DNA of 22,446 bases from a virus. The notes below the pieces were generated by a model that was given only the letters and a program-made list of their open reading frames with translations, was not told the origin of the DNA and did not search any database. The stretch is from positions 1-22,446 of the IMG/VR virus record IMGVR_UViG_3300042465_000439; one strand, 5' to 3'. Of the stretch, positions 1 to 17,156 are shown piece after piece (position 1 is the stretch's first letter; the number at the start of each line of letters is the position of its first letter). The position numbers were made by a program, and so were the translations under genes.

Positions 1-833
1 GAATCCCTAGCGAGTGGTTCCTGCTGCGCTTACCCGCTAGTACCAGCGGGCTTCTCCCGGCGTCTGAGTTACACGCTGCTAAAGCGCAATTGTCCGAGGA
101 TCAGTACTTGCAGGAGTACGAGTGCAGCTTTGAGGCTGCCATCCTCGGAGCTTTTTACGGCACGGAGATGCGCCAAGCGCAAGATCAAGGCCGTATGCGA
201 AGCCTTCCCTACGACCCCAACCTACCCGTCTATACGGCATGGGACTTGGGTTACCGCGACGACACCGCTATCTGGTTCTACCAAGTGCTGCGTGGCGAGG
301 TGCGCGTCATCGACTTCTTTGCCGTCTCGGGCGCTGACATTCACTACATTGCCGAGGTCGTCACCCGCAAACCCTACGAGTACGCCAAGCATTACTTGCC
401 GCACGACGCCCGTGCCAAGAGCCTACAGACGGGCCGAAGCGTGTTGGAGCAGTTAGCCGCTTACCTCGACATCAAGAAGCTGGCGGTTGTCCCCGACATC
501 GGCTTGCAGTCGGGCATACAGGCTGTGCGTATGTTGCTGCCGCGTGTGTACTTTGACGCCGAGAAGTGCCACGACGGCATTGAGGCGCTGCGCCAGTATC
601 AACGTGAGTACGACGAGGACAAGAAGGCGTTTAGGCAGTCCCCGCGCCATGATTGGACGAGCCACCCTAGTGACGCATTCCGTATGCTTGCGGTATCATG
701 GCAAGAGCAATCTGACAAGTCCCCGGCTACAGCGGAGCCGAAGCCGCTTATAGTCGGACCAGAGAACACAGTCACACTTAACGATATGTGGGCTGTGCAT
801 GACCGCACTACGAGCAAGAGGATACGGATATGA
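1..833 (+). CDS. Terminase large subunit, C-terminal (nuclease) part, 5'-truncated by window edge
   Basis: This is the motor/nuclease subunit that cuts concatemeric DNA and drives it through the portal. The reading frame (codons starting at position 3) is open to the left edge and reads IPSEWFLLRLPAS before reaching the TTG at 90, so that TTG is internal and the gene starts outside the window. The ATPase domain is therefore missing here. The visible part has the hinge pattern ending in EYECSFEAAILGAFYG, then the RNase H-like nuclease: AWDLGYRDDTAI (first catalytic Asp, codon 243-245), LPHDARAK (near 400) and SHPSDAFRML (near 660-690). These are the usual acidic motifs of phage large terminases. 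The stop overlaps the next start (ATGA at 830-833). The small terminase is probably upstream. Confidence 0.93.
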   Translation, partial: IPSEWFLLRLPASTSGLLPASELHAAKAQLSEDQYLQEYECSFEAAILGAFYGTEMRQAQDQGRMRSLPYDPNLPVYTAWDLGYRDDTAIWFYQVLRGEVRVIDFFAVSGADIHYIAEVVTRKPYEYAKHYLPHDARAKSLQTGRSVLEQLAAYLDIKKLAVVPDIGLQSGIQAVRMLLPRVYFDAEKCHDGIEALRQYQREYDEDKKAFRQSPRHDWTSHPSDAFRMLAVSWQEQSDKSPATAEPKPLIVGPENTVTLNDMWAVHDRTTSKRIRI

Positions 834-1096
834 GTTTGTCGGTTACACAGTCCCAGAACTACAAGAACCTGACCGCGACAGGAACCGTATTCACGGGGCC
901 GTGCGGAATGTTCGGTATTTTCGTGGCTTCTGCTTCCAGCACCCCAACCATCAAGGTCACCGATGGAGCCGCTACGGTCGTCAATACGTTCACCCCGGCG
1001 GGTGGCACGTTCTACACGATCCCCGCTCGCGTCAACACGAGCCTTGTCGTGACGATTGGTGGCACGGTTGACTGCACGGTGTTCTGGACGCCATGA
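830..1096 (+). CDS. Small beta-rich phage protein of unknown function
   Basis: An 88-residue protein that overlaps the terminase stop by 4 bases (ATGA), so it is probably translationally coupled to it. It is rich in Thr, Val, Gly and Ala, with alternating hydrophobic residues (for example STPTIKVTDGAATVV and SLVVTIGGTVDCTVFW), which suggests an all-beta fold. There are no charged clusters, transmembrane helix or catalytic motif. I do not recognise a named family. Its place between terminase and portal and its composition suggest a minor virion or head-associated protein, which is inference only. Coding status is supported by tight coupling on both sides and by uninterrupted frame use in a densely packed operon. 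Confidence 0.72.
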   Translation: MSLSVTQSQNYKNLTATGTVFTGPCGMFGIFVASASSTPTIKVTDGAATVVNTFTPAGGTFYTIPARVNTSLVVTIGGTVDCTVFWTP

Positions 1097-1251: not shown

Positions 1252-1544
1252 GCGCAGCGTGGCAGCGGGAAGAAGGTAAAAACCCGAAAGGCGGTCTGAA
1301 CGCCAAGGGTCGTGCCAGCTACAAGGCCGAGACGGGCGGCACCCTTAAGCCGCCGGTCAAAGCAGGCGATAATCCGCGCCGCGCATCGTTTTTAGCCCGT
1401 ATGGGCAACATGGCTGGCCCGATGGAAAAGAACGGGAAGCCGACACGCCTTGCGCTTGCCCTCCGTGCATGGGGAGCGAGCAGTAAGGAAGAAGCCCGCG
1501 CCAAGGCGAAGGCCATTAGCAGCAGGAACAAAGGTAAAGACTAA
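1248..1544 (+). CDS. DUF6321-like small basic phage protein
   Basis: A 98-residue Lys/Arg-rich protein. The N-terminal half, AAWQREEGKNPKGGLNAKGRA, followed by TGGTLKPPV and later ASFLARMGNMAGPM, KNGKPTRLALALRAWG, matches my memory of the phage family labelled DUF6321. That family has conserved W..eEGKnp.GGLn.kGR, FcaRM.gm.GPm and kP.rkalALr.W blocks. All three blocks are present, so it looks full length. Its function is not established. The gene overlaps the preceding stop by 4 bases, and its TAA at 1542-1544 shares one base with the portal ATG (TAATG). A role around packaging or the portal is suggested only by position. Confidence 0.8.
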   Translation: MSAAWQREEGKNPKGGLNAKGRASYKAETGGTLKPPVKAGDNPRRASFLARMGNMAGPMEKNGKPTRLALALRAWGASSKEEARAKAKAISSRNKGKD

Positions 1545-3736
1545 TGGAAAACCTCGTTAGCCCAGAGGTCGATAAGTACCTCCGTGTTATTGGCGCTTAT
1601 GACAACGAGTTCGCCAAGTGGACTGCTCGTACCAAGAAGATCATCAAGCGCTATCGGGACGACACCCGAGGCCAGACGGGCAACGAGTCAGCCAAGTTCA
1701 ACATCCTGTGGTCAAACGTCCAGACGTTGATCCCGGCTGTTTACGCCAAACTCCCGAAGGCTGACATCACCCGCCGCTTTGGTGACAACGACCAAGTAGG
1801 CCGTGTGGCTTCGCAAATCCTAGAGCGAGCCATCGACTTTGAGATTGAGCATTACCCCGACTTCCGCTCAACCATGAAGTACGCCGTAGAGGATCGCTTC
1901 CTCGGTGGGCGTGGCACGGCATGGGTGCGTTACGAGCCGCACGTTCGCCCGCAAGGCATTGAGGATGACGGCCTGCAAGTGACCGAGGACGTAGAGGCAG
2001 GCGAGCTTGCCGAAGTCCCCGAGGAGATTGAATACGAACGCGCCCCGGTCGATTACGTCCATTGGCGCGATTTTGGACACTCACAAGCCCGCACATGGGA
2101 GGAAGTGAGTCAGGTATGGCGCTGGGTTTACATGAGCCGTGAAGCCCTCGTAGAGCGTTTTGGCGAGGAAATGGCGCGGAAGATTCCGCTTGACCAAGGC
2201 CCAGAGCCGCTCAACGCCTACAACGAGAGCAAGAAAGCGTACAACCGTGCCAAGATTTGTGAACTGTGGGACAAAGAGACGCTGAAGGTCTATTGGTTCT
2301 GCAAGGGTATGCCGCAGATTATCGACGAGCGCGATGATCCGCTTGGTTTGGAGGGATTCTTCCCCTGCCCGAAGCCGCTTTATGCAACGACAACTAGCGA
2401 CACGCTGGTTCCCGTCGCTGATTTCATCCTGTACCAAGATCAAGCGATGGAGTTGGACATTTTGTCTGACCGCATCGACGGCTTGGTTAAGGCTTTGCGC
2501 GTCCGTGGCGTATACGACGCAAGCCAACCGGCTTTGCAGCGCCTCCTGACTGAAGGTGATAACAATGCTCTTATTCCAGTTGATAAGTGGATGGCTTTCA
2601 GCGAAAAGGGAGGGCTTAAAGGCTCGATTGACCTTCTTCCGCTGGATCAAATCGCCCAAACCCTGCTCAACTGCTACCAAGCCCGAGCAGACATCAAAGG
2701 CCAAATCTACGAAATCACCGGCATCTCGGACATTATCCGTGGTCAGAGCGCCGCATCTGAGACGGCGACGGCCCAACAAATCAAAGGACAGTACGCGGGA
2801 CTAAGACTGCGTTCGATGCAGGAGGACGTAGCCCTCTTTGCGTCAGAGTTGATCCGGCTAAAAGCGCAAGTCATGTGCGCCAAGTTCCAGCCGCAGACCA
2901 TCCTTTCGTATGCCGCCGCACAACAGATGGCCGAAGTGGATCAGCAGATGATCCCGCAAGCCCTCCAGTTGATGCAGGATCGACCGCTTCGCAACTTCCG
3001 CGTAGAGATTGCTGCCGATAGCCTCGTCCAGATCGACGAGAACCAGATGAAGCAAGACCGCTTGCAGTTCATCCAAGCCTTCGGTGGGTTCCTGCAACAA
3101 GCGCTGCCGGTCGGCCAAGCCTCGCCGCAGCTTGTCCCTGTCATGATGGAATTGATGAAGTTCGGTACGCAGGCGTTTAAGGCGTCTCGCCCGATTGAGG
3201 GCCAAATTGACGTTGCGATGGAGCAACTCAAGCAAGCAGCCGAGCAGCCGAAGCCAAACCCCGAGGCCGAAGCCGCCAGCGCTCAAATGCAAGCCGAGCA
3301 GCAACGCGCACAGGCCGAAATGCAGATGGAACAGCAAAAGGCGCAGTTGGAATTGCAACTCAAGGCGCAAGAGCTTGCCCAAAAGGAGCAGTTGGAGCGC
3401 TTCAAGGCAGAACTCGACGCTGCTACGAAGATTATGGTGGCGCGTATCTCGGCCAACCCCGGAATGGACTTGCCGATGCTGGAGCAACAGCAGGCCGTCA
3501 CGGATCGCGTGGCGCAGGATGTCGGTCAATCGGTGCAGGCAACGATGCAGCAGCTTGTTGGGCTGTATCAAAGCCTCATGGACACGCAAACGCAGAACAT
3601 GGCGGGTATCCGCGCTGCTCTCGCCCAACTTGCAGCACCCAAGCGCATTGTTCGCGGCCCAGATGGTCGCGCTGCGGGTGTAGAGGTCGCACCGGCTATG
3701 CCGCCAATGGCACAGCCGCCCATGACGAGGCAATAA
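1544..3736 (+). CDS. Portal protein
   Basis: The head-to-tail connector ring through which DNA is packaged and ejected. At 730 residues it is close to the P22-type portal size. Recognisable portal features include NILWSNVQTLIPAVYAKLPK (about residues 50-70), an early helical part with ERAIDFEIEHYPDF and AVEDRFLGGRGTAWVRYEP, the VHWRDFGHSQARTWEEV block (about 170-185), and the ITGISDIIRGQSAASETATAQQIKGQ block (from about 390). The last precedes the long stem/crown helices. About residues 560-635 are extremely Gln/Glu/Ala/Lys-rich and would form a coiled coil or long barrel-like helix. After that comes a Pro-rich tail (PAMPPMAQPPMTRQ). The ATG overlaps the upstream TAA. The terminase - small genes - portal order supports the call. 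Confidence 0.93.
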   Translation: MENLVSPEVDKYLRVIGAYDNEFAKWTARTKKIIKRYRDDTRGQTGNESAKFNILWSNVQTLIPAVYAKLPKADITRRFGDNDQVGRVASQILERAIDFEIEHYPDFRSTMKYAVEDRFLGGRGTAWVRYEPHVRPQGIEDDGLQVTEDVEAGELAEVPEEIEYERAPVDYVHWRDFGHSQARTWEEVSQVWRWVYMSREALVERFGEEMARKIPLDQGPEPLNAYNESKKAYNRAKICELWDKETLKVYWFCKGMPQIIDERDDPLGLEGFFPCPKPLYATTTSDTLVPVADFILYQDQAMELDILSDRIDGLVKALRVRGVYDASQPALQRLLTEGDNNALIPVDKWMAFSEKGGLKGSIDLLPLDQIAQTLLNCYQARADIKGQIYEITGISDIIRGQSAASETATAQQIKGQYAGLRLRSMQEDVALFASELIRLKAQVMCAKFQPQTILSYAAAQQMAEVDQQMIPQALQLMQDRPLRNFRVEIAADSLVQIDENQMKQDRLQFIQAFGGFLQQALPVGQASPQLVPVMMELMKFGTQAFKASRPIEGQIDVAMEQLKQAAEQPKPNPEAEAASAQMQAEQQRAQAEMQMEQQKAQLELQLKAQELAQKEQLERFKAELDAATKIMVARISANPGMDLPMLEQQQAVTDRVAQDVGQSVQATMQQLVGLYQSLMDTQTQNMAGIRAALAQLAAPKRIVRGPDGRAAGVEVAPAMPPMAQPPMTRQ

Positions 3737-3739
3737 CGC

Positions 3740-5911
3740 ATGGCGCTTGTTCTGCAAGATCGCGTTAAAGAAACAACGTCTACCGTTGGTCTTGGCGCTT
3801 TTGCGCTCGGGGGTACGTCCACGGGCTTTGTGCCGTTCTCGGTTATCGGTAACGGCAACGAGACGTACTACACCGCTGTAGACAACACCACGGGCGAGTG
3901 GGAAGTCGGCATTGGTACGTACAATGTCGGGACATTGACCCGCGACACGGTGCTGGCCTCTAGCAACGGCGGCAGCAAAGTGCCGTTTGCAGCGGGGTCA
4001 AAGGACGTATTCGTAGCGTATCCGGCAGAAAAAGCCGTCACGCTTGATACCGCACAAACCCTGTCCAACAAGACGCTTGCTAACGCTGACCTTGGCACCC
4101 CGACCGCTGGTGTATTGACCAATGCCACGGGGCTGCCGCTTTCAACCGGCGTTACCGGCGCATTGCCCACCGTAAATGGCGGCACCGCGCTGACGGCTAC
4201 GCCAACCAACGGCCAGCTATTAATCGGCAACGGTGCGGGCTACACGCTCGCTACGCTGACGGCAGGCACGGGCGTTTCGATCACGAACGGCCCCGGCAGC
4301 ATCACAATCAACGCACCGGATGTCGGCACGGTTACGGCTGTCACGGCTACCGCCCCGCTTGCCTCATCTGGCGGCAATACGCCGGATATCAGCCTGACGG
4401 GCGTTGTCAGCGTCCAAAACGGCGGTACGGGCGTAGCCACCTTAACGGGTTACGTTAAAGCCTCCGGTACGTCAGCGTTTACGGCTGTTGCCTCTATCCC
4501 TGCCGGGGACATATCCGGCCTTGGCACGATGGCGACCCAGAACGCCAGCAGCGTTGCCATTACGGGCGGGTCGATTAACGGCACAACGGTGGGAGGCTCG
4601 TCACCAAGCACGGGCGCGTTTACCCAAGTCATCGTTGATAACCTCGACATCAACGGCAACACGATTGCATCAACCGACACCAACGGCAACATCACGCTTG
4701 ACCCCAACGGTACGGGTGCGGTGGACGTTTCGTCGGCCAAAATCCTTAACGTCGCAACGCCGACTAACGCGAATGACGGCGTTAACAAGCAATACGTTGA
4801 TACCCTTGTCGCCAGCAGCATTACCTATCACACGCCGGTTAAGTACGAGGTGCCAATCGCACTCACCGCTACTTACAACCAGCCGGGTGGTGCGGGAGTT
4901 GGTGTAGGTGCCACGCTAACCAACGCAGGAACGCTTGCGGCCTTTGCGCCTGACGGCCCGACTGTTGCCTCGGTTGGTGACCGAATCCTGATTTATAACC
5001 AAGCCAGCGCGTTTCAGAACGGCGTGTACACCGTTACAACCGTTGGCGATGGGTCAACAGCGTGGGTGCTGACTCGCGCCACGGATGCCGACACTTATGC
5101 GGTGAAAAATCCTAACGCATTGGGCGAAGGCGATGCGTTTTTCGTCACTTCAGGCAGTACGGGCGCAGGCGAAACCTACGTCTGCAATACCCAAGGCACG
5201 ATTACCTTCGGGTCAACCGCCATCAACTTTGTGCAAATTGCCTCTGCTCAGATTTATTCCGCAGGCACCGGGCTTACCCTCTCTGGGTTGGTTTTCAGTA
5301 TTACGCCGGTCGGAACTGCCAGCACTTACGGCTCGGCCTCACAAGTTCCGGTCATTACGACCAACGTATCCGGCCAAGTCAGCAGCGTCACCAACACATC
5401 TATTGCCATCAACGGCAACCAAATCACCTCTGGCAGCGTTGGTGTAGCGTATGGCGGTACAGGTCAAACCTCGTACACAGATGGTGAGTTGTTAATTGGC
5501 AATTCCACCGGCAACACGCTGACCAAGTCCACGCTGACAGCCGGATCGGGAATTAGCATCACTAACGGCGCTGGAAGCGTCACCATTGCAGCCACGGGCG
5601 GCGGTTCAACGATCAACCTCGTTGCTGATACGTCAACTTCGTCCAATATTTACCCGGTTTTTGCTGATACCTCATCCGGCACAGCTTCAACGCTTTATAC
5701 CAGCAACCCAAAACTGCTCTATAAGCCGTCTACAGGCGAATTTCAGTCAACATTCCTCCAAGCCACAGGGGGAATCGTGTTGCAAGGCGCAACAGCGCCA
5801 TCTAGTTACACTATCGCGGCAGGAGTAAACGGATTAACGGTGACGCCGTATACAATCCCGCCGTCAACCGCAATCACCGTCGCCGCCGGTCAGCGTTGGG
5901 TCATGCTGTAA
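3740..5911 (+). CDS. Repeat-rich fibre / receptor-binding structural protein
   Basis: A 723-residue Gly/Thr/Ser/Asn-rich protein with no catalytic motif. Residues 1-105 form a beta-rich virion-attachment-type domain ([60 protein letters not shown]), a module I know from many phage fibres. Next come TLSNKTL and GGTG-type repeats. Residues 145-194 and 569-619 are two copies of a LLIGN..G.TL...TLTAG.GISITNG.GS.TI unit. Residues 345-355 carry the trimeric-fibre motif [12 protein letters not shown]. Residues 395-500 carry a [20 protein letters not shown] module common in fibres. The C-terminus ends [11 protein letters not shown] with no chaperone domain visible. It starts 4 bases after the portal stop with GAGG upstream. 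It could be a tail fibre or a head fibre; the position (between portal and scaffold) does not decide. Confidence 0.82.
4172..4321 (+). repeat. Fibre repeat unit, copy A (residues 145-194)
   Basis: The first copy of a roughly 50-residue unit within the fibre gene: [19 protein letters not shown], then a [20 protein letters not shown] segment. It pairs with copy B at 5444-5596 with clear protein similarity. The unit is followed directly by a [24 protein letters not shown] segment, another motif common in phage fibres. Likely a beta-prism or beta-helix shaft element. Confidence 0.75.
5444..5596 (+). repeat. Fibre repeat unit, copy B (residues 569-619)
   Basis: The second copy of the unit at 4172-4321: [18 protein letters not shown], then [19 protein letters not shown]. 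Conserved positions are GGT, LLIGN, TL, LTAG.G.SITNG and GS.TI. The copies lie about 1.27 kb apart, flanking a different central module (residues about 345-517). Confidence 0.75.
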
Positions 5912-5929
5912 CGGCAAAGGAGTTAGGAA

Positions 5930-6475
5930 ATGGCAAGCACAATCAACGCAGCAGTTACCGGCATTGTCCATACGGCAGACAATACTGGCGAATTGAATAT
6001 TCAAACTAGCGGCACAACCGCTATTTCAATCAACACCACGCAAGTTGCGACCTTCAGCAAGGGCGTAAAGATCAATGGCGCATCATCAGGCGCGATTACG
6101 TTAAACGCTCCAGCCGTTGCCTCTACTTACACTTACACGCTGCCCACGACAACGGCAACCCTCGGCTATTTGAATATCCCCGCCGTTGGTACGAAAACAT
6201 CAAGTTATACGCTGGCGACAGCTGACGTCGGCAAATACGTTCAAGTTGGGTCAGGCGGCAGCATTACGATCCCTGACGCGACGTTTGCGGAAGGCGATGT
6301 TGTTTCTGTGTTTAACAATACATCAGGGAACATCACGATTACTTGCACGATTACGACCGCTTATATCGGCGGTACGGATTCGGACAAGGCAACGGTTACT
6401 TTAGCCACGCGTGGCATAGCAACTATCTTTTTTATCAGCGGGACGGTTTGCGTCATCACCGGCAACGTGAGTTAA
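5930..6475 (+). CDS. Beta-rich fibre-associated structural protein
   Basis: A 181-residue Thr/Ile/Ser/Ala-rich protein preceded by a good ribosome binding site (AAGGAG at 5917-5922, 7 bases before the ATG). Residues about 1-75 read like the end of a fibre shaft (GELNIQTSGTTAISI, VKINGASSGAITLNAP, YTYTLPTTTATLGYLN). Residues about 85-181 form a compact beta domain (TADVGKYVQVGSGGSITIP, FAEGDVVSVFNNTSGNITITC). That arrangement, an early conserved GKYV then ITIPD then GD.VSV.N...G.ITI, recurs in C-terminal domains of phage fibres and tailspikes. It probably works as a separate fibre tip or second fibre protein with the gene before it. No enzyme motif is seen. Confidence 0.68.
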   Translation: MASTINAAVTGIVHTADNTGELNIQTSGTTAISINTTQVATFSKGVKINGASSGAITLNAPAVASTYTYTLPTTTATLGYLNIPAVGTKTSSYTLATADVGKYVQVGSGGSITIPDATFAEGDVVSVFNNTSGNITITCTITTAYIGGTDSDKATVTLATRGIATIFFISGTVCVITGNVS

Positions 6476-6478
6476 TCC

Positions 6479-8500
6479 ATGAGCGGATCGCAACTTTTGC
6501 TGTTGGGCGGCGCACAAGTCGTCAGCGACCCTAACTTCGAGTACACCACTCTGTTGCTGCCCGGTAACGGCACCAACGGAGCGCAGAACAATACGTTCCT
6601 AGACTCGTCTACTAACAACTTTACAATCACCCGCAACGGCAACACGACGCAGGGTGCGTTCTCGCCGTTCTCGCAGACGGGGTGGGGTAACTTTTTTGAT
6701 GGGTCAGGCGATTTTTTAAGTGTCGCTAGTAGTGCTGCGTTTGACATAGGCAGTTCGGATTTCACAGTTGAATGCTGGTTTAACGCAAATTCTTTCGCTA
6801 CAGCGTTCGGGCTAATTTCCAGATACGACAACGCTCCGGCTGGTTGGACGCTGCGCGTAACAAGCGCCACAAACATTCGATTTGTTAGAGGCGCGGATAT
6901 AATTTTTGATGCCACTACAACAATGTCGATAGGATTATGGAATCATGTTGCAGTCGTTCGAAGTGGCACTACGTTAAGTATTTACCACAATGGCACAAGA
7001 ATAAATCAAACAACGGGAATTTCAAATTTTACCGATGCTTCAACTGCGTTGCAGATTGGCCGTACCAACACTATAACCGATGACATAAACGGTTACATTA
7101 GCAACGCTCGTGTTGTTAAAGGCACGGCGGTTTATTCGGGGGCAACATACACAATCCCTACAGCGCCGCTTACCGCTATCACCAACACCTCCCTGCTGAC
7201 CTGTCAGAGCAACCGCTTCATCGACAACAGCAGCAACGCCTTTGCCATCACGGTCAACGGTAATACCTCCATCCAAGCCTTCAGCCCGTTCAACCCCACG
7301 GCAGCGTGGATTGCGGCGACTAATGGGGGAAGCGGGTATTACGACGGAAGCGGGGATTACTTAACCATCGCCAACAACGTAGCATTGCAGCCGGGTGGCG
7401 GCGCATTCACCTATGAAGCATGGGTTTATTGTTTAAGTTATCCAAGTGCTGGAAACTTTGAAACTTTATGGGCGCAACGCGCCACTGCCTCTGGCTATGG
7501 TGGCCCATTGGTTGTTATTAACAACAGCGGAACTTTGCTTTATTACATATCAAACGCTGCGGCAACCAACTGGCAAATTACGGGCAGTTCAAGCGGACTC
7601 ACGCTTCCGCTAAACCAATGGAATCACGTTGCTATCGTTAGAAACGTAAATACTTGCACTATTTACTTAAACGGAACGGCTGGAACTTCTGTAACGCTTA
7701 CAGAAAACGTGGGCGTAGGCGGCAATCTGTCGTTGATGGCTGGCGCTGCTGACGGTAGCCAAGCAGTTGATGGCTATATGTCTGACTTTCGCTTGGTCAA
7801 AGGCACGGCTGTCTACACCGCAGCCTTCACGCCTCCAACCGCTCCGTTAACCGCAATCACTAACACCTCTCTGCTCACAAGCTTCACCAACGCAGGCATT
7901 TACGACGCTACGTCCAAGAACGACCTTGAGACGGTGGGCAACGCGCAGATCAGCACGGCGCAGAGCAAGTTCGGCGGGTCGTCGATTGTGCTTGACGGCA
8001 CCGGGGACTATTTGCTTCCAAGCGGCGCAGCGTCCAACAACTTGCTTGCGCTTGGTAGTGGCGACTTTACGATTGAATTCTGGATTCGTTACGGATCGCT
8101 TGGCGACGTTACAATAATAGATTGGAGGCCAGCATCTACAAACGGCGCATATCCAACATTATTTAACGATGTTGGGACTAATAAACTTATTTATTACGCA
8201 AACAGCGCAACCAGAATTACTAGTTCAACTGTTTTTGCGACAAACACTTGGTATCACGTTGCTATTGTCCGTTACAGCGGATCAACCAAAATGTATGTCA
8301 ATGGAGTTAACGAAGGTTCTGCATATTCTGACGCCAACAATTACCTTTCTGGGGCTTTAAGGCCGATGATTGGCGCAAATGGCTCTGGCAATGGATCAAA
8401 CGCAATGAACGGTTTTATTCAAGACCTTCGCATAACCAAAGGCGTTGCCCGTTACACCGCTAACTTCACCGCCCCGACTGCGGCGTTCCCGCTTCTGTGA
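6479..8500 (+). CDS. Triple LamG / concanavalin A-like lectin structural protein
   Basis: A 673-residue protein made of three tandem LamG-like (jelly-roll, carbohydrate-binding) units at about residues 38-244, 245-468 and 469-673. Each has the signature of this fold as seen in phage adhesins: DGSGDFL/DGSGDYL/DGTGDYL, then DFTVECWF, AFTYEAWV or DFTIEFWI, then W(N/Y)HVA(V/I)VR, then a y.NG strand, and finally R(V/L/I)(V/T)KG near the end. Units 1 and 2 also share N.F.D.S.N.F.IT.NGN...AFSPF. The likely role is binding host surface glycans as part of a fibre or virion decoration. The short N-terminus (MSGSQLLLLGGAQVV) may be an attachment segment. It starts 3 bases after the preceding stop. DNA within the lectin cores is visibly richer in A+T than the linkers and neighbouring genes. 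Confidence 0.85.
   Translation: MSGSQLLLLGGAQVVSDPNFEYTTLLLPGNGTNGAQNNTFLDSSTNNFTITRNGNTTQGAFSPFSQTGWGNFFDGSGDFLSVASSAAFDIGSSDFTVECWFNANSFATAFGLISRYDNAPAGWTLRVTSATNIRFVRGADIIFDATTTMSIGLWNHVAVVRSGTTLSIYHNGTRINQTTGISNFTDASTALQIGRTNTITDDINGYISNARVVKGTAVYSGATYTIPTAPLTAITNTSLLTCQSNRFIDNSSNAFAITVNGNTSIQAFSPFNPTAAWIAATNGGSGYYDGSGDYLTIANNVALQPGGGAFTYEAWVYCLSYPSAGNFETLWAQRATASGYGGPLVVINNSGTLLYYISNAAATNWQITGSSSGLTLPLNQWNHVAIVRNVNTCTIYLNGTAGTSVTLTENVGVGGNLSLMAGAADGSQAVDGYMSDFRLVKGTAVYTAAFTPPTAPLTAITNTSLLTSFTNAGIYDATSKNDLETVGNAQISTAQSKFGGSSIVLDGTGDYLLPSGAASNNLLALGSGDFTIEFWIRYGSLGDVTIIDWRPASTNGAYPTLFNDVGTNKLIYYANSATRITSSTVFATNTWYHVAIVRYSGSTKMYVNGVNEGSAYSDANNYLSGALRPMIGANGSGNGSNAMNGFIQDLRITKGVARYTANFTAPTAAFPLL
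6590..7210 (+). repeat. LamG-like unit 1 of 3
   Basis: Residues about 38-244 of the lectin-type protein. Landmarks are FTITRNGNTTQGAFSPF, DGSGDFLSV, DFTVECWF, LWNHVAVVR, IYHNGT and ARVVKGTAVY. The C-terminal linker PTAPLTAITNTSLLT is nearly identical to that of unit 2. Confidence 0.8.
7172..7200 (+). repeat. Interdomain linker DNA repeat, copy 1
   Basis: A 29-base segment encoding the TAITNTSLLT linker after LamG unit 1. It matches 7850-7878 at 25 of 29 positions by direct comparison, far closer than the lectin cores it separates. Such a shared patch could serve as a site of recombination between units. Confidence 0.7.
7211..7882 (+). repeat. LamG-like unit 2 of 3
   Basis: Residues about 245-468. 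Landmarks are NRFIDNSSNAFAITVNGN, FSPFNP, DGSGDYLTI, AFTYEAWV, QWNHVAIVR, IYLNGT and FRLVKGTAVY. It ends with the same PTAPLTAITNTSLLT linker as unit 1. Confidence 0.8.
7850..7878 (+). repeat. Interdomain linker DNA repeat, copy 2
   Basis: The second copy of the 29-base linker repeat, after LamG unit 2. It differs from copy 1 at four positions, at least three of them silent. Confidence 0.7.
7883..8497 (+). repeat. LamG-like unit 3 of 3
   Basis: Residues about 469-673. Landmarks are SIVLDGTGDYLL, DFTIEFWI, WYHVAIVR, MYVNGVN and LRITKGVARYTANFTAPTA. Its opening (YDATSKNDLETVGNAQIS, then KFGGSSIVLDGTGD) differs from units 1 and 2 and resembles free-standing LamG domains of other phage proteins, so this unit may have a different origin. 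Confidence 0.8.
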
Positions 8501-8508
8501 GGTAGCCC

Positions 8509-8814
8509 ATGACACTCTATAGTTTCAAAGGCCACTACCCAGTTGAAGTCATCGACAACAACAAGGGTTGGTACGAAGTTCCTGCCAAGCCCGAGGCACC
8601 AGAGGGTAAGCAAGTTGCGTGGCTGAACGGCGAATGGGTCGTGCGTGATCCCAAGCCCGAGGATCGCCCCGGCTACCAATGGAACTGGAACCACAGCGAG
8701 ATGGCGTGGGTCGAGTGTCCGTGGGTGACGCTAGAGACGCCCGTTGAGCCGCCCGTGACTCAGTTATCCACCATGTCAGCCATGACCGCTGTTTCGGTGG
8801 TTAGCCAACTCTAA
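8509..8814 (+). CDS. Trp-rich small protein following the fibre cassette
   Basis: A 101-residue protein with many Trp and Pro residues: GWYEVPAKPEAPEGKQVAWL, NGEWVVRDPKPEDRPGYQW, then WNHSEMAWVECPW, then a Thr/Val-rich end. The W.NG.W.V pattern and the position directly after fibre genes recall small tail-fibre assembly or fibre-tip accessory proteins, but I cannot assign a family with confidence. GAGG at 8500-8503 lies ahead of the ATG. Its TAA shares one base with the next ATG (TAATG at 8812-8816). It may alternatively be a small structural protein with a chitin-binding-like or carbohydrate-binding Trp surface. Confidence 0.65.
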   Translation: MTLYSFKGHYPVEVIDNNKGWYEVPAKPEAPEGKQVAWLNGEWVVRDPKPEDRPGYQWNWNHSEMAWVECPWVTLETPVEPPVTQLSTMSAMTAVSVVSQL

Positions 8815-9209
8815 TGTTTGCGATTGCGCCATTTTGCGTATTGCCGTTCGCGGTTGCGGAGGTCACGACACCCCCGCCCCCGCCTCCCGTCGTTGTCATC
8901 GACAGTCACGACGGCGGCAAGAACACGCACAAGAAGCGCAAAGAGCAGCGTTACGACGAAGATTCCAAGCGCCGCGAACTGCGCCGCAAGGAAGTCATAT
9001 CCATTTACGAGGAACTGGTTGAAGGTCGCCCGCGTGTGGTGGCCGAGATTGTTGCTCCGTTCGTAGAAACCCCCGTTCCGGCCTACGCCGTCCCGGCAGT
9101 TGAGCAGATCGACTTTGATGCGCTGCTCGCTGACGTTGAGCGGCTGCAGGCTTTGTATCGGGAAATGCAAGAAAAAGACGACGAAGAAGTGCTATTGTTA
9201 CTCCTATGA
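8814..9209 (+). CDS. Small phage protein with hydrophobic N-terminus, polyproline and C-terminal oligoleucine
   Basis: 131 residues in distinct blocks. Residues 1-17 are hydrophobic (MFAIAPFCVLPFAVAEV). Residues 20-25 are six consecutive prolines. Residues about 35-62 are highly charged and mostly basic (KKRKEQRYDEDSKRRELRRK). A helical acidic part follows, and the protein ends EKDDEEVLLLLL. The opening pattern of PF-containing hydrophobic residues resembles small phage proteins that I have seen annotated only as hypothetical. Function is unknown. The five terminal Leu use codons cta, ttg, tta, ctc, cta and avoid ctg, which may reflect the need to encode the next start in the overlap (ATGA at 9206-9209). 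Confidence 0.68.
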   Translation: MFAIAPFCVLPFAVAEVTTPPPPPPVVVIDSHDGGKNTHKKRKEQRYDEDSKRRELRRKEVISIYEELVEGRPRVVAEIVAPFVETPVPAYAVPAVEQIDFDALLADVERLQALYREMQEKDDEEVLLLLL

Positions 9210-9553
9210 AACGAACCTACGTTTTTATTGACGGCGAGTTTGTAGAACGTAAGAAGGACGAGAAGGGTCGGTATCACTATGTGATGCCCGACATCCAGCC
9301 GTACCGCTCCATGATTGACGGGAAAATGGTGACTTCCCGTTCGGAACACCGCCGCCACCTCAAGGCCAACAACTGCATTGAGGTTGGCAATGACGACCCG
9401 TCACGGCACATACGGAACGAAAAGCCCGACAACTCTCGGCTTGAGCGCCTGAAGTACGAGATTAATAAGCGCATGACCAACGATCAGGCCGACCGCCTGC
9501 TTCGTGACTTGCGCCAACACGCGAACTTTACCAATCCCCACAGGAGAGGATGA
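9206..9553 (+). CDS. Small charged phage protein upstream of scaffold
   Basis: A 115-residue hydrophilic, basic protein. Distinct parts are the N-terminal strand pair VFIDGEFVERK, then YHYVMPDIQPYRSMIDG, KMVTSRSEHRRHLKANNCIEVGND, and a helical C-terminus (LERLKYEINKRMTNDQADRLLRDL). The IDGK.VTSRS.HR.HLK...C.EVGND block is one I recall from many phage proteins located just before the scaffold gene, where no function is assigned. The start overlaps the previous stop by 4 bases, and the sequence just before it (gttactcct) has no Shine-Dalgarno match, so translation is probably by coupling. Its stop overlaps the scaffold start. Confidence 0.75.
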   Translation: MKRTYVFIDGEFVERKKDEKGRYHYVMPDIQPYRSMIDGKMVTSRSEHRRHLKANNCIEVGNDDPSRHIRNEKPDNSRLERLKYEINKRMTNDQADRLLRDLRQHANFTNPHRRG

Positions 9554-10530
9554 TGAGCGACCTTGATAATCAACCTACAGTTGACAACGAAACCGTAGAC
9601 CGCAAAGAACTTCTAGCCCGTCAGTTTGAGGAAGCCGAGGCACAGCCCGAAGCACCCCGAGATTCTGGCCGTGACGAGTCTGGCCGATTTGCCAAGACCG
9701 TAGCCCCAGAGCCTACCCCCGAACCTGCCGAGGAAGCCGTATGGCGTCGTCCTCCGGCGTCGTGGAAAAAGGATTACCACGAGGTTTGGCAGAAAGCCGA
9801 CCCTCGCCTGCAAGAATACGCTTACCAGCGCGAAGAGCAGATGCGCCGTGGCGTGGAGCCGCTGCTGCAAGCCAAGCAGTTTGCCGATTCCATCCAAGAG
9901 GCGATCAGCCCTTACGTTTCGACCATTACCGGCCTTGGCTTAAAGCCAGAGCAGGCCATTGCGTCGTTAATGAAAGCTGACCACACCCTTCGCACCTCTG
10001 ACCCGCAGACCCGCTACAACTACTTCATGCAGTTGGCGAGCGAGTACGGGATCAACCTTCAAAATATGCCGCAAGGCCAAGCGCCTGCTGTAGACCCGAC
10101 CATTTTTAACCTTAAGAACGAGCTTGCGAGCGTTCGTGGCGAAGTGCTGACTTGGAAACAGCAGCAGGAAGCCGCCGAGCAAGCCGTAATGAGCAACGAA
10201 ATAGATTCCTTTGCCCAGAAGGCCGAGTACTTCGAAGAAGCACGGCCAGAGATGATTAAGCTCCTTCAGAGCGGCGTAGCCGAAACGCTGGAGGAGGCTT
10301 ATGATAAGGCAGTTTATGGAAATAGAGATTTGCGGGAACGCGTACTGTCAGCCCAACAGGCACAACAGGCCGCCCAAGTTTCCGCAGAGAAAAACCGAGC
10401 AGCTAAGGCCGCTCGGGCCGCTGCTGTGAGTGTCAGAAGCGCCACACCCGGCGCTAACACGGCTCCCAAAGCGCAAAGTCGTCGTGCGTTAATCGAAGAA
10501 GCCTTCGAAGAAACTAGCGCACGGTTGTAA
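9550..10530 (+). CDS. Capsid scaffolding protein
   Basis: A 326-residue, highly charged, mostly helical protein directly before the major capsid gene, the canonical scaffold position and close to T7-type scaffold length. It has an acidic, disordered N-terminus (residues 1-65, with ESGRFAKT and PEPTPEPAEE). A conserved-looking WRRPPASWKKDYHEVWQKAD block at about 65-85 leads into QEYAYQREEQMRRGVEPLLQ. Long Gln/Glu/Ala helices (about residues 190-285) follow, and then a basic Ala-rich C-terminus (AAKAARAAAVSVRSATPGA, SRRALIEEAF) of the sort that contacts coat protein. Two in-frame ATGs stand side by side (9550 and 9553), both behind AGGAGAGG. I chose the first, and the difference is one residue. 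Confidence 0.85.
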   Translation: MMSDLDNQPTVDNETVDRKELLARQFEEAEAQPEAPRDSGRDESGRFAKTVAPEPTPEPAEEAVWRRPPASWKKDYHEVWQKADPRLQEYAYQREEQMRRGVEPLLQAKQFADSIQEAISPYVSTITGLGLKPEQAIASLMKADHTLRTSDPQTRYNYFMQLASEYGINLQNMPQGQAPAVDPTIFNLKNELASVRGEVLTWKQQQEAAEQAVMSNEIDSFAQKAEYFEEARPEMIKLLQSGVAETLEEAYDKAVYGNRDLRERVLSAQQAQQAAQVSAEKNRAAKAARAAAVSVRSATPGANTAPKAQSRRALIEEAFEETSARL

Positions 10531-10553: not shown

Positions 10554-11573
10554 ATGGCATTTGCCAACTCTAGTATCAGCGACATCATCGCTACTACAAT
10601 CCAGAGCCGTAGCGGTGAGCTTGCTGATAACGTGACGAACAACAACGCGTTGCTTCGTCGTTTGAAGGAGCGTGGGAACGTCAAGACGTTCTCGGGCGGT
10701 AACGTGATTTTGCAAGAAATCATGTACACCGACCCGACCACCAACAACACCAACTCGTACAGCGGCTATGAAGTGCTGAACGTCGGTCAGAACAGCCCCA
10801 TCTCGGCGGCTCAGTTTTCGATCACGCAGTACGCTTCTGCTGTGACCATTTCGGGTCTGGAGATGATCCAGAACTCGGGCAAGGAGGCCATCATTGACCT
10901 TCTTGACGGTCGCATGGAAGTGGCTGAGGCGCAGCTTGCCAACCGCATCAGCGGTGACCTGTACGGCGACGGTACCGGCAACGCGGGTAAGAACCTGACG
11001 GGTCTTGCTGCTGCTGTGCCGGATGACCCGACCGTGGGAACCTACGGCGGCATCAACCGCGCTGTGTGGACGTTCTGGCAGTCGAAGAAGTACAGCGGCT
11101 TGACCGATGGTCTTGCTGCCGTGTCGTCTTCGAACATCCAAGCGTACATGGACGCGCTGGCCGTTCAACTCGTTCGTGGCACCGACAAGCCTGACCTCAT
11201 CGTTGCGGATAACAACTACTATCGGTTGTATCTCCAATCGTTGCAGGCCATCCAGCGCATTACTGACGCTGGTTCGGGCATGGCGGGCGCGGGCTTTGCT
11301 TCGCTCAAGTACTACGGTGCTGGTATGGCCTCCGATGTTGTGTTGGACGGTGGTATCGGTTCCTCGACGTACAACAGCGGATCGGGCAACGCGAACCACA
11401 TGTGGTTCCTCAACACCAAGTACCTGCACTTCCGCCCGCACAAAGACCGCAACTTTGTGCCGATCGGTGGCGAGCGGCAGGCCGTCAACCAAGACGCCAT
11501 TGTTAAACTGATTGGCTGGGCCGGTAACCTCACCTGCTCGGGCGGTCAGTTCCAAGGCGTGTTGATTGCTTAA
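10554..11573 (+). CDS. Major capsid protein
   Basis: A 339-residue protein directly after the scaffold, close in size to T7-type coat (about 345 residues). It begins MAFANSSISDIIATTIQSRS, followed by NNALLRRLKERGNVKTFSGG, a segment typical of coat proteins that lack an N-terminal cleaved delta domain. A central helix region (SGLEMIQNSGKEAIIDLLDG, then AEAQLANRISGDLYGDGTGN) precedes the INRAVWTFWQSKKY and NIQAYMDALAVQLVRGTDKP segments, and the C-terminal part has HMWFLNTKYLHFRPHKDRNF. This matches coat proteins I recall from uncultured short-tailed phages. An HK97-type fold is inferred, not seen. Synonymous codon use appears stronger in ctg/cgt/acc/aac than in the fibre genes, consistent with high expression. 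Confidence 0.9.
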   Translation: MAFANSSISDIIATTIQSRSGELADNVTNNNALLRRLKERGNVKTFSGGNVILQEIMYTDPTTNNTNSYSGYEVLNVGQNSPISAAQFSITQYASAVTISGLEMIQNSGKEAIIDLLDGRMEVAEAQLANRISGDLYGDGTGNAGKNLTGLAAAVPDDPTVGTYGGINRAVWTFWQSKKYSGLTDGLAAVSSSNIQAYMDALAVQLVRGTDKPDLIVADNNYYRLYLQSLQAIQRITDAGSGMAGAGFASLKYYGAGMASDVVLDGGIGSSTYNSGSGNANHMWFLNTKYLHFRPHKDRNFVPIGGERQAVNQDAIVKLIGWAGNLTCSGGQFQGVLIA

Positions 11574-11585
11574 GGAGTAACGAAA

Positions 11586-12059
11586 ATGACTGTTTCAACA
11601 TCTGGCGTCATTGGCGTGGCTCTCGGTAACACCGACACCTCCCCGCAGTTCAACGTTGGCACGAGTGTCAACTTGGACGACGGCGGTCAGGCTGTGTACG
11701 TGCAGGCTGCTTCGGCGGTCGCGCAGTACGACGCCGTTTCCGTGCGTTTTAACAACACGGTGGTGCCGATTTCTACGACCAACTCTGCAAACAGCAAGGC
11801 GGTCGGTTTTGCCCAAGTGTCGATTGCCGCATCCGAATATGGATGGGTGCAGATCGGCGGCAAGCCGGTTGTCAAGCTGGCTGCGTCTTGCCTCCCGGCT
11901 GTCCCGCTCTATACGACGGCGACGGCTGGAACGCTTGACGATGCCCCGGTTAGCGGTGGCCTTGTGGCGGGCATTGTTGCCGTCACGACGGCTTCCGGTG
12001 CTACTGCGCTGACTTGCGTTGCGGGTTACCCGCACGTCCTGTCGGGCGTGGCTGGCTAA
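11586..12059 (+). CDS. Putative capsid decoration / head-stabilising protein
   Basis: A 157-residue Val/Ala/Thr/Gly-rich protein with very few charged residues, immediately after the coat gene and preceded by its own AGGAG (11573-11577). The protein has a beta-barrel-like pattern: NLDDGGQAVYVQAASAVAQYDAVSVRF, then AVGFAQVSIAASEYGWVQIGG, then LAASCLPAVPLYTTATAGTLD and VAGIVAVTTASGATALTCVAGYP. The order of a parameter-like strand, then GfA.....G..GWV.i.G, then a strand with LYTT.TAG.LDDA, recurs in small decoration proteins and DUF2190-like proteins that sit next to coat genes. I infer decoration from this, with no motif that proves it. The stop is 3 bases before the next ATG. Confidence 0.65.
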   Translation: MTVSTSGVIGVALGNTDTSPQFNVGTSVNLDDGGQAVYVQAASAVAQYDAVSVRFNNTVVPISTTNSANSKAVGFAQVSIAASEYGWVQIGGKPVVKLAASCLPAVPLYTTATAGTLDDAPVSGGLVAGIVAVTTASGATALTCVAGYPHVLSGVAG

Positions 12060-12061
12060 CC

Positions 12062-12835
12062 ATGCAGCCTCTGGAGATCACGGTTGTAAAGGCTGGGACG
12101 GAGGAGGAGCTTTGCTCCAATATCCGTTCGGCACTTGCCCGTGGTCTGCCAGAACTGACCCTCGCTCCCATCAAGCACGATGGCAACATCGTCTTGGTGG
12201 CGAGCGGGTGGTCTATGCCGGACTACATTGACGAGATTAAGGCGCACCGCAAAGCTGGTCGCCCGATTGTGGCTATAAAGGCCGCACACGACTTTCTAGT
12301 TGAAAACGGGGTAGAACCCGACCTGTGGATCAACCTTGACCCACGCGACCGCACGAACGGCATACAGCGGTTAAACGACCATACCGTTTATATGCCCGCC
12401 TCACGTTGCCCGCCCTCAACGTTTGAGCATTTGCAAGGGCGCAAGATATTGCTGTGGCACTCATGGGCAGAAGGCCCAGAGATGGAGGCCATTGGCCCAA
12501 ACAAGATTGCCGTTGGTGGCGGCACGACCTCGGGTTTGCGAGCCATCAACATCGGGTATTTGCTCGGTTTCCGTAATTTCATCATGTACGGCTATGACTC
12601 GTGCAACAGTCCTGCCGGTATCAAGCGATTTACAGGCGAAGCGAGCGGCCCCACGGTAGATGTGTACGTCGGCGGCCATGCAGGTAAGAAATTCACCTGC
12701 AATGCAGCAATGGCGCAGCAGGCTAACGAGTTTCAGAAGTTGTTTGAGGTGATGGCTGATATCACCCTTGATGTGCGCGGCCCCGGCTTGATTGCCGAAA
12801 TCATGCGCGTTCGCACCGAGAGGATGGCTGCTTAA
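12062..12835 (+). CDS. MptE/DUF115-like protein (6-hydroxymethylpterin diphosphokinase-like domain)
   Basis: 257 residues from the ATG at 12062. A TTG at 12014 would extend it upstream through the previous gene and is less likely. The core resembles the MptE/DUF115 fold of nucleotide- or sugar-handling enzymes: NIVLVASGWSM (nucleotide-loop-like strand-loop near residue 40), GRPIVAIKAAHDFLVENGVEPDLWINLDPR (about 60-90), then KIAVGGGTTSGLRAINIGYLLGFRNFIMYGYD (about 145-180), a pattern of Gly-rich loop, helix, then strand ending in G(Y)D. The C-terminal part has TCNAAMAQQANEFQKL. In bacteria, DUF115 occurs in flagellin-glycosylation (Maf-type) proteins and in archaeal pterin synthesis; phage members are generally uncharacterised. 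The function here is unknown. It may modify virion or host glycans. Confidence 0.6.
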   Translation: MQPLEITVVKAGTEEELCSNIRSALARGLPELTLAPIKHDGNIVLVASGWSMPDYIDEIKAHRKAGRPIVAIKAAHDFLVENGVEPDLWINLDPRDRTNGIQRLNDHTVYMPASRCPPSTFEHLQGRKILLWHSWAEGPEMEAIGPNKIAVGGGTTSGLRAINIGYLLGFRNFIMYGYDSCNSPAGIKRFTGEASGPTVDVYVGGHAGKKFTCNAAMAQQANEFQKLFEVMADITLDVRGPGLIAEIMRVRTERMAA

Positions 12836-13662
12836 TGGCTATTCCCTCCCGAGTTTTGGGTAGCGGCATCAGCCAGTTATCCACAGTCTCTATTTGCGGC
12901 GATGGCACAACGGCAGTAACGGCTGCCGGTACGTCTGCGGGCGATGCCACGCAAATCGCATACGTTTATACCAACGTCACAACGGCTGCATCTGGTACGG
13001 GCGTAAAACTGCCCAAGGCCGAGATGGGCGAAACGGTGATTATTAGGAACGGTGGCGCAAATTCGATAAAGGTTTACCCGTACAGCGCAACCGACACGAT
13101 TAACGAAGCCGGGTTTGGAACCATTAACGCAGACTGCTCTGCAATGTTCTTTGCCGTCAGCAATACGTTGTGGGAGGAACTGCAAGGCTTTGGTCGTTCG
13201 GTGCCAATTCTGCACTTTGGTGCGTTTTCGGACACAACTTTGCAAACTGCGGCTGCGGTCAATACCGCCTACGCAATGACGTTTAACACGACCGATAGCA
13301 GCAATGGCGTGTCTATCGGTTCGCCGTCCTCTCGGCTTGTTGTGGATTTCCAAGGCGTTTACAACGTGCAGTTTTCGGCACAGTTAGACAAGACCTCGGG
13401 CGGCGCAGGCAATATTTACATCTGGTTGCGTAAAAACGGCACCAATGTCGCCAACACAGCCACTACCATCGCCATCCAAGGCACGGCGGCGCGTACCGTT
13501 GCCGCTTGGAACTTTATTATTCAGCTTGAACCCACCCATTACGTCGAGTTGATGTGGGCTACGGACGACACAAGCGTTAGAATTCTTGCAGCCAGCGCTA
13601 CAAGCGTGTGGCCTGCGATCCCCTCGGTTATTTGTACTTTGACCCAAGTCAATAACCTATAA
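12835..13662 (+). CDS. Two-domain beta-sandwich virion protein (possibly C1q/TNF-like C-terminus)
   Basis: 275 residues, starting at TAATG (one base shared with the stop before). Residues about 1-115 form a small beta domain (GDGTTAVTAAGTSAGDATQI, then VKLPKAEMGETVIIRNGGAN and SIKVYPYSATDTIN). Similar segments occur in phage head and tail structural proteins. Residues about 122-275 look like a jelly-roll (HFGAFSDTTLQTAAAVNTAY, VDFQGVYNVQFSAQLDKTSG, NIYIWLRKNGTNV, HYVELMWATDDTSVRI). The order F.....G.Y.v.fs.q, then iyiWLRkNG..v, then ve.mW...d..v.i is what I see in C1q/TNF-like phage structural proteins, so I suggest that fold. No catalytic residues. Probably a head fibre or tail accessory protein. 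Confidence 0.62.
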   Translation: MAIPSRVLGSGISQLSTVSICGDGTTAVTAAGTSAGDATQIAYVYTNVTTAASGTGVKLPKAEMGETVIIRNGGANSIKVYPYSATDTINEAGFGTINADCSAMFFAVSNTLWEELQGFGRSVPILHFGAFSDTTLQTAAAVNTAYAMTFNTTDSSNGVSIGSPSSRLVVDFQGVYNVQFSAQLDKTSGGAGNIYIWLRKNGTNVANTATTIAIQGTAARTVAAWNFIIQLEPTHYVELMWATDDTSVRILAASATSVWPAIPSVICTLTQVNNL

Positions 13663-15159: not shown

Positions 15160-16728
15160 ATGGCGGGATTGCGTCAACGTCGCTTCGTACAACGTGCGGT
15201 GGCGAACGTCGCTTCGCTGCCCGCGCCTATTGGTGGCTGGAACGCCCGTGACTCACTCGCCAACATGGCTCCTACGGATGCCGTCACGCTGGATAACCTG
15301 TTCCCCGGCGTTTCTAACGTCAATCTGCGTGGTGGATACGTTAAACACGCCACCGGCTTGCCGGGGCAGGTAGAGAGCCTCTTTAGCTACGCTGGAGCGG
15401 CCACCAACAAGCTGTTTGCCGCGTCAGGAACGGGGTTTTACGACGTAACCTCCGCAGGCGCGGTGGGCGCAGCGGTCGTTAGCGGCCTGACTAACGCTCG
15501 GTGGGAGTACATCAACGTAACCACCCCCGGCGGTAATTACATGATGTGCGTTAACGGGGTCGATAAGCCCCGTTTGTACAACGGTTCCACATGGGTTGCG
15601 CTAGATGGAGCGTCAACGCCTGCCATTACGGGCGTCACGACCACCACGCTTGCCAATATCACGTTGTTCAAAAACCGCATTTGGTTTACCCAGAAAGACA
15701 CCCTTAAGGCGTGGTACTTGCCGACCCTTTCGGTGGGCGGTGCAGCGCAGGAACTTGACCTGTCTGCCGTTGCCAAGCTCGGCGGTACGTTGGTAGCGGT
15801 CGGAACGTGGACGATTGACGCCGGTTACGGTGTGGATGACAACCTCGTGTTTGTCACCGACAAGGGCGAAATCATCGTTTATCGTGGCACCGACCCCTCT
15901 AGCGCCTCCACATGGGCGCTGATCGGCGTTTGGATGGTGGGTGCGCCTATCTCCAAGCGTTGCATGATGAAGTACGGCGGCGACTTGCTGTTGTTGACGC
16001 TTGACGGGCTGTTCCCGCTTGCCTCAGCGCTGCAATCGTCCCGCCTTGATCCCAACGTGGCGTTGTCAGACAAGATTCAAGGCGCGTTTGCCGCTGCTGC
16101 CCAGAATTACAAGAACAACTTCGGCTGGGGCATGATTTACAACGCAAACAACAATGCGTTGATCGTGAACGTGCCGGTTGCCACGGGTTCGCAAGAGCAA
16201 TTTGTAATGAACAACATTACGAAGGCTTGGTGCCGGTTTACGGGCTGGAACGCCAACTGCTTTAACCTGCTAGGTGATGATCCGTACTTTGGCGGCAACC
16301 AATTTGTCGGCAAGTGCTGGACGATTGGCAGCACCGGTTACGTTGATGACACCAACAACATCGACGGTCGGGCTTTGCAGGCGTTTAACTACTTCGATTC
16401 GCGGGGTGTAAAGAAATACTTTACCCGCGCACGGCCTAGCTTGTTCAGCAATGGACAGCCCGCCATCAATATCGACATTAACGTGGACTTTGACCTTGCC
16501 CCGTCTACGGCGGCGTTGGCGTACTCGCCATCGACGTATGGCACATGGGATGTGTCTACATGGAACAACGGTATCTGGGGTCAGGACACGATTATTAGCA
16601 ACAACTGGCAGGGTGTGACCGGCATCGGTTACTGCGCCGGTATCCAGCTCAACAGCACTAGCAAGAACTTGCAGTTGCAATGGGCATCCACAGACATTGT
16701 GTATCAAATCGGATGGGCTGGCATATAG
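15160..16728 (+). CDS. Tail nozzle / stabilisation protein (tail tubular protein B-like)
   Basis: 522 residues. After a basic N-terminus (MAGLRQRRFVQRAVANVAS) comes LPAPIGGWNARDSLANMAPTDAVTLDNLFPG, the characteristic opening of phage proteins that cap the adaptor (roles equivalent to T7 gp12 or P22 gp10). Then come repeated blades suggestive of a beta-propeller: NKLFAASGTGFYDVTSAGAV, YMMCVNGVDKPRLYNGSTW, TLFKNRIWFTQKDTLKAWYL, NLVFVTDKGEIIVYRGTDPS and DLLLLTLDGLFPLASAL. The middle also has WGMIYNANNNALIVNVP, and the C-terminal beta-sandwich-like part includes ARPSLFSNGQPAINIDINVDFD. It completes the short tail and keeps DNA in. The C-terminus overlaps the next coding region by 16 bases if the start at 16713 is right. 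Confidence 0.82.
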   Translation: MAGLRQRRFVQRAVANVASLPAPIGGWNARDSLANMAPTDAVTLDNLFPGVSNVNLRGGYVKHATGLPGQVESLFSYAGAATNKLFAASGTGFYDVTSAGAVGAAVVSGLTNARWEYINVTTPGGNYMMCVNGVDKPRLYNGSTWVALDGASTPAITGVTTTTLANITLFKNRIWFTQKDTLKAWYLPTLSVGGAAQELDLSAVAKLGGTLVAVGTWTIDAGYGVDDNLVFVTDKGEIIVYRGTDPSSASTWALIGVWMVGAPISKRCMMKYGGDLLLLTLDGLFPLASALQSSRLDPNVALSDKIQGAFAAAAQNYKNNFGWGMIYNANNNALIVNVPVATGSQEQFVMNNITKAWCRFTGWNANCFNLLGDDPYFGGNQFVGKCWTIGSTGYVDDTNNIDGRALQAFNYFDSRGVKKYFTRARPSLFSNGQPAINIDINVDFDLAPSTAALAYSPSTYGTWDVSTWNNGIWGQDTIISNNWQGVTGIGYCAGIQLNSTSKNLQLQWASTDIVYQIGWAGI

Positions 16729-17156
16729 AAAGCGGCATGGATGTGGGCGAATGGGTCTGCTCCCAAACCGGGGGCGGCTACCACGACGCTCGCTCCAACG
16801 CCCTTGGGCTACGCCGAGACGACGAATTAGTGGCCGGTGTGGTGTACGAGAACTGGAATGGTCGTTCCGTCGTATGCCACATAGCGGTGCAGGGGAAAAT
16901 GACCCCTGCCTACCTCGCGGCCATATTCGACTACCCCTTCAACGTCTGTGGGGTTGACAAAATTATCGCTCCCGTGTCAAGCGGGAATAGCAAAGCATTG
17001 CGATTAGTGGGTAAAATGGGGTTCACCGAGGAAGCGCGTATCCATAACGCCGACACCGCCGGGGACATCGTGTTTTTAACTATGGCACGGGAGTCGTGTC
17101 GGTTTTTAGGAAGGCGTTATGGGCAAAAAGTCACCGAAACCACCTCCGGCACCTGA
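16713..17156 (+). CDS. GNAT-family acetyltransferase-like protein
   Basis: 147 residues from the ATG at 16713. Other in-frame ATGs are at 16680 and 16737. I prefer 16713 because the protein then opens MGWHIESGMDVGEWV, which looks like the first strand and helix, whereas the start at 16680 only adds residues read through the previous gene. Features are the strand ELVAGVVYENWNGRSVVCHIAV and NSKALRLVGKMGFTEEARIH, the typical end of a GNAT domain in which an acetyl-CoA-contacting N..A..l..k.GF motif precedes a final strand. The classic Q/RxxGxG/A pyrophosphate loop is not obvious (LAAIFDYPFNV instead). The substrate is unknown. It overlaps the next gene by 38 bases. GNAT genes embedded at this point of podovirus operons are common in my recollection. 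Confidence 0.68.
   Translation: MGWHIESGMDVGEWVCSQTGGGYHDARSNALGLRRDDELVAGVVYENWNGRSVVCHIAVQGKMTPAYLAAIFDYPFNVCGVDKIIAPVSSGNSKALRLVGKMGFTEEARIHNADTAGDIVFLTMARESCRFLGRRYGQKVTETTSGT

Follow-up and report, generated by a model that had tools for sequence, protein, structure and literature searches.

A likely resident tail-fibre locus beside the portal gene of an Mx8-like phage, with a swappable lectin tip

Introduction

Why should a short-tailed phage carry fibre genes between its portal and its scaffold? In the cultured relatives Mx8, Mx9, BUCT555, ctMlz233, and ppBjS10J-1 the usual order, in which the portal leads on to scaffold and coat, does hold, with only one to three small genes in between. 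The question arises from a viral sequence record 22,446 bases long (the whole stretch of DNA analysed here, called the window), which is a fragment of a genome, since genes are cut at both of its ends. Judged from its sequence, this is the genome of an Mx8-like short-tailed phage, a virus of bacteria. It shares with Mx8, Mx9, BUCT555, and ppBjS10J-1 the order of portal, scaffold, coat, tail protein, and stabilisation genes, with portals 34-41% identical; unlike the window, these four phages have no fibre between portal and scaffold.

A preliminary description had proposed either that an adhesin module was inserted at this site or that its products decorate the head near the portal. We consider it likely that positions 3740-8814 form a resident, portal-proximal tail-fibre locus with a swappable, mobile lectin tip whose domains are exchanged singly.

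Results and Discussion

Gene order at the locus

The left border of the locus is the portal gene (1544-3736, + strand; phrog_12082 portal, E 4.5e-182). It is followed, as the preliminary description reported, by tightly packed + strand open reading frames of 723, 181, 673, and 101 residues: fibre 1 (3740-5911; phrog_31660 tail fibre, E 8.7e-23), fibre 2 (5930-6475; residues 75/78-181 at 65-80% identity in relatives), a lectin with three LamG domains (6479-8500; PF13385, E 8e-53, together with its conservation profile and the mosaic analysis below), and a Trp-rich lectin partner (8509-8814; recognised by alignment and by its position after the lectin stop). The block gives way to two small + strand genes, g131 (8814-9209), which overlaps the stop of the 101-residue gene, and g115 (9206-9553), a conserved right border with a relative in ppBjS10J-1. 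These lead to the scaffold gene (9550-10530), which had no profile match and was assigned because it precedes the coat gene and resembles Mx8 p47 (32%), and to the major head protein gene (10554-11573; phrog_9953, E 5.7e-105).

Two neighbours farther along may be recorded here. A conserved 259-residue protein of the structural operon (12056-12835) has a weak phrog_2111 match and by eye resembles a putative DUF115-type sugar enzyme, and a GNAT acetyltransferase-like gene (16680-17156) overlaps the stabilisation gene; several Mx8-like phages have an annotated acetyltransferase at a comparable place.

Two proteins of probably one fibre

Fibre 1 begins with a conserved N-terminal anchor (about residues 1-110), is partially conserved up to residues 149-297, and continues as a repetitive shaft. 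Across relatives the N-terminus is conserved and the remainder variable; among near relatives the C-terminus is replaced behind a conserved N-terminus, the pattern of a tail fibre with an anchor and a variable tip. Sequence matches to the anchor domain are mostly unnamed phage proteins, and in most cultured phages that carry it the anchor is annotated as a tail fibre. Fibre 2 is built the other way round, with a variable N-terminus and a C-terminal domain conserved from about residue 78. One relative (L084) encodes a single protein of 894 residues in which the fibre 1 anchor is joined to the C-terminal domain of fibre 2, and the two window proteins are therefore probably parts of one fibre. 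Fibre 1 would supply the conserved virion anchor and the shaft, and fibre 2 would extend it.

Domains related to a weak BclA_C (C1q-like) match in g275, a window gene between the coat and tail genes (12835-13662), occur inside the portal-side fibres of three relatives (L052, L056, and L083); domains may thus move between loci of one genome.

Tail or head attachment

That the cassette products decorate the head beside the portal, as head or neck fibres, is suggested by genes that adjoin the portal, by the recurrence of this portal-side placement in several backbones, and by a match of fibre 1 to phrog_2647, "head decoration" (E 1.1e-14). This match, however, covers the shaft only (residues 325-562) and is also found in the second fibre of the window. 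Moreover, the anchor gene stands behind genes of tail-tube type in about 40 contigs and in the phages Venkman, HTVC023P, and ctXG6705. Of the VIA matches to the predicted fold of the anchor (pLDDT 73), the best was to one chain in the portal-tail complex of phage GP4, a weak similarity below the trusted level of the tool (Z 7.0); sequence searches of the PDB with the portal, tail, and stabilisation proteins returned nothing useful. With the anchor usually directly behind tail-tube genes, and with a tail-fibre annotation in most of its cultured carriers, we regard head decoration as rather unlikely and attachment of the fibre to the tail as the better inference.

The second fibre gene noted at the right end of the window is present (22176-22446, + strand; 90 residues in the window, open at the window end). 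It is recognised by its conserved N-terminus and by profiles of virion structural, tail-fibre, and head-decoration type. All seven downstream contigs that reach the gene share its residues 1-90 at 83-91% identity, and its tip is variable, with S74 in one relative (G004) and a Gly-rich partner gene in another (G001). The same N-terminus is found in relatives that have no portal-side fibre, so that 22176 would be the canonical tail-fibre locus. On these sequences, the phage group appears to have one such locus, and the lineage of the window a second one.

An old fibre site with replaceable tips

Scanning with the portal of the window yielded 80 viral contigs, and we compared the interval between portal and g115; most of the relatives are metagenome contigs. 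In a fibreless sister lineage, with portals mostly 72-77% identical, this interval is about 1.2-1.4 kb long and holds three small genes. In the other lineages it measures 2.8-6.3 kb and nearly always opens with a fibre that resembles the window fibre over its first 150-300 residues; the exception is a pair (L064 and L066) with another fibre type after the portal. In the first of these, a further fibre-like gene of 622 residues and a 103-residue gene lie between g88 and the portal (L064 660-2842). Two other contigs (L061 9049-9546, and L067) have a 165-residue HNH-like reading frame between small genes that precede the portal.

About 25 relatives, with portals 73-98% identical, have the same anchor fibre behind the portal, and its tips differ. 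One tip is a Peptidase_S74 chaperone (L021; S74 is also visible in the L012 sequence), and another is a Gly-rich adhesin (Gly_rich_2) with a 2OG-Fe oxygenase (L016 and, by sequence, L083). The tip consists of the lectin and the 101-residue protein in the window and in L017, L025, L026, and L051. Relatives with the portals most similar to that of the window (98%) have non-lectin tips wherever their sequence reaches the tip, and on the portal tree four changes are needed for the lectin state.

The site itself looks older than its tips. In two contigs with portals only 45-46% identical (L141 and L144), the portal is followed by the anchor fibre and then by genes that we judged by eye from the sequences to be g131-like and g115-like; in L144 a coat gene is also seen. 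The same gene plan occurs with another portal type in L118, and in the cultured phage CRP-6, likewise with a portal of another type, the anchor fibre lies one gene after the portal. At the corresponding site the fibreless lineage has a 152-residue gene of the gp57 family of HTVC023P, members of which stand immediately before the anchor gene in numerous other phages; the g131 homologue of this lineage has a repeat-rich N-terminus. These placements, and the gp57-family gene, point to an old fibre site rather than a fresh insertion.

The idea of an inserted adhesin module thus stands in part. Its adhesin character is supported by the anchor domain, the shaft, the three-domain lectin, and the swappable tips. 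The absence of a fibre from cultured Mx8-like phages and from the sister lineage, together with a lectin part that is clearly mobile, might suggest that the whole module was recently inserted between portal and scaffold. However, the comparison of synteny with relatives, recommended in the preliminary description, shows the anchor fibre kept at one site while tips differ: the fibre and the small genes keep their order in almost all g88-carrying relatives as well as in L141 and L144, and in the sister lineage the site is not empty. Since the same anchor fibre sits behind such divergent portals, recent insertion of the block is not supported, and we hold it to be quite unlikely. From these comparisons, the recent part appears to be the swapping of tips and of individual lectin domains.

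We also considered whether g88, a small protein of beta type encoded ahead of the portal (window 830-1096), serves the fibre as a specific adaptor. It occurs together with a fibre in all 27 scored carriers, two of them with another fibre type, and is absent from all 36 contigs without a fibre; two more carriers missed by the automatic score have the anchor nonetheless. In the fibreless lineage, the slot holds a different small beta-type protein of 96-101 residues, and both states follow the portal tree. Linkage by descent is therefore sufficient, and we rejected the adaptor.

The lectin and its partner

The 673-residue protein contains three Laminin_G_3 stretches (PF13385) that score 179.1 bits against a curated cut-off of 27.6, which places it among LamG/ConA-like proteins. 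Its domain cores span about residues 80-210, 301-440, and 511-650, and conserved linkers occupy about residues 21-75, 231-295, 451-508, and 651-673. From the LamG domains we predict that it binds sugars and forms the distal, receptor-binding tip of the fibre. Lectins of about 1300 residues occur in some phages (L155 4075-7992 and L176 4107-7997), and 13 reading frames in the lectin set have a doubled K0-K1-K2 linker array, suggesting six LamG domains.

In nearly all contigs that show both, only 12-15 bp separate the lectin stop from the start of the 101-residue gene, a position directly behind the receptor-binding gene like that of Tfa genes. In alignments its residues 1-70 are conserved and its tail is variable. 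The protein had no Pfam or PHROG match, its predicted structure (pLDDT 59.5) had no fold or PDB match, and a scan of genome contigs, made in search of a host, revealed no relative. It probably helps the lectin to fold or attach, and may be a fibre chaperone. Like gp24/gp25 of Pam3 and the Tfa chaperones (PMC9608196), it is a small fibre-paired protein with a small beta-rich N-terminal part and a different C-terminal part; no sequence or fold match to the 101-residue protein turned up, however, and the N-terminal part is non-conserved in Pam3 gp25 but conserved here.

Mobility between backbones

A comparison of the window with all loci by blastn revealed a stretch shared at the DNA level with unrelated phages (6192-8718, + strand). 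Its right edge is sharp, at 8717/8718 inside the 101-residue gene, and its left edge lies at about 6192-6210 where fibre 2 is shared. The lectin and its partner are a mobile module, present in five to six phage backbones. Carriers with a phrog_332 portal have the lectin between terminase and portal, a carrier with a phrog_156 portal (L173) has it between portal and scaffold, and those with a phrog_21 portal possess a tape measure; further carriers are DSL-LC04-like phages and phages with a ctXG6705-like coat protein. Placement near the portal occurs in four backbones, that of the window included. Ten tracts of 614-1392 bp with 96-99% DNA identity, some of them duplicates of one event, link different backbones. 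The tip is swapped often, that of the window being a lectin-partner module in circulation among phages of different portal families.

Exchange of single lectin domains

Conservation is very unevenly distributed along the lectin. Among 25 lectins, the inner linkers have median identities of 82-94% and the last 23 residues 78%, compared with only 25-27% for the cores. Domain 1 of the window is 97% identical to that of two other lectins (L169 and L173), the other domains of which are 26-37% identical. With the same two lectins, L017 shares domain 3 at 98%. The core of domain 2 in L026 is identical in protein sequence to that of L161, and against L162, which has the same lectin as L161, the second-domain DNA is 97.2% identical over 739 bp (blastn).

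To quantify such sharing we used 80 complete three-domain lectins. At least one domain is shared at 80% or more in 25 pairs, of which 21 have another domain below 45% and four share all three. Shared domains occupy the same position 38 times and different positions four times. Tract ends fall in linkers at 63 of 71 borders, a count that includes islands of conserved linker and hence many borders that are not true crossovers. Each domain appears to move as a whole, and the simplest route would be homologous recombination within the position-specific conserved linkers. We rejected a diversity-generating retroelement, as the changes are replacements of whole domains and none of the scanned window genes was named as a reverse transcriptase, and likewise site-specific recombination, there being no notable repeats beyond the domain periodicity.

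Could the mosaics be artefacts of assembly, in which linkers longer than the assembler k-mer join reads of different phages? The linkers are indeed long and similar in DNA, and all mosaic pairs come from metagenome contigs. Against this, the lectins of L017, L026, L051, L161, and L225 recur, mostly at full length and with 100% identity, in contigs of different IMG metagenome ids, and DSL-LC04, a complete named genome, has a relative of both the lectin and its partner. The recurrence disfavours chance chimeras, even if a shared source of those metagenomes is still conceivable, and we judge an artefact to be very improbable. Exchange of single domains remains the reading that we prefer.

Comparison with known systems

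Shuffling of domains in the receptor-binding tip is a known process, which here is unusually clean, position-specific, and cross-family. Smug et al. (2023; PMC10684548) described domain shuffling in phage receptor-binding proteins, in a main text that does not mention lectins, laminin, or linkers. As in their study, otherwise unrelated receptor-binding proteins of distant phages have fragments in common; unlike there, the lectins compared here combine a mostly fixed domain order with position-specific exchange and conserved linkers between unrelated cores. Metaviromic islands (Mizuno et al. 2014; PMC3909814), where genes and fibre C-termini turn over within marine groups, are likewise hypervariable regions for host recognition and hold genes for tail fibres, lectin-like proteins, C1q, 2OG-Fe oxygenase, XkdW, and gp38, but the lectin module of the window passes between portal families and has a domain-wise mosaic structure. 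Because of its fixed three-domain order, conserved linkers, closely linked partner gene, and crossing of portal families, the lectin system is a clear variant, and we found no description of it among the open-licence papers that our searches listed.

Conclusions

A resident fibre site with replaceable tips accounts for the inserted look of portal-side fibre genes in uncultured phages. More tentatively, and we think this possible rather than probable, unrelated phages may draw on one community-wide pool of lectin domains, with three position-specific linkers serving as fixed sockets for single LamG domains. If so, domains would cross portal types by homologous recombination and produce new binding combinations while the virion anchor stays undisturbed. 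Trading domain by domain between unrelated viruses would let them alter their grip on host cells. The locus would then offer a natural, sequence-readable case of receptor-binding tips built combinatorially from exchangeable domains across phage families, in which the acquisition of new phage specificities becomes testable with defined parts.
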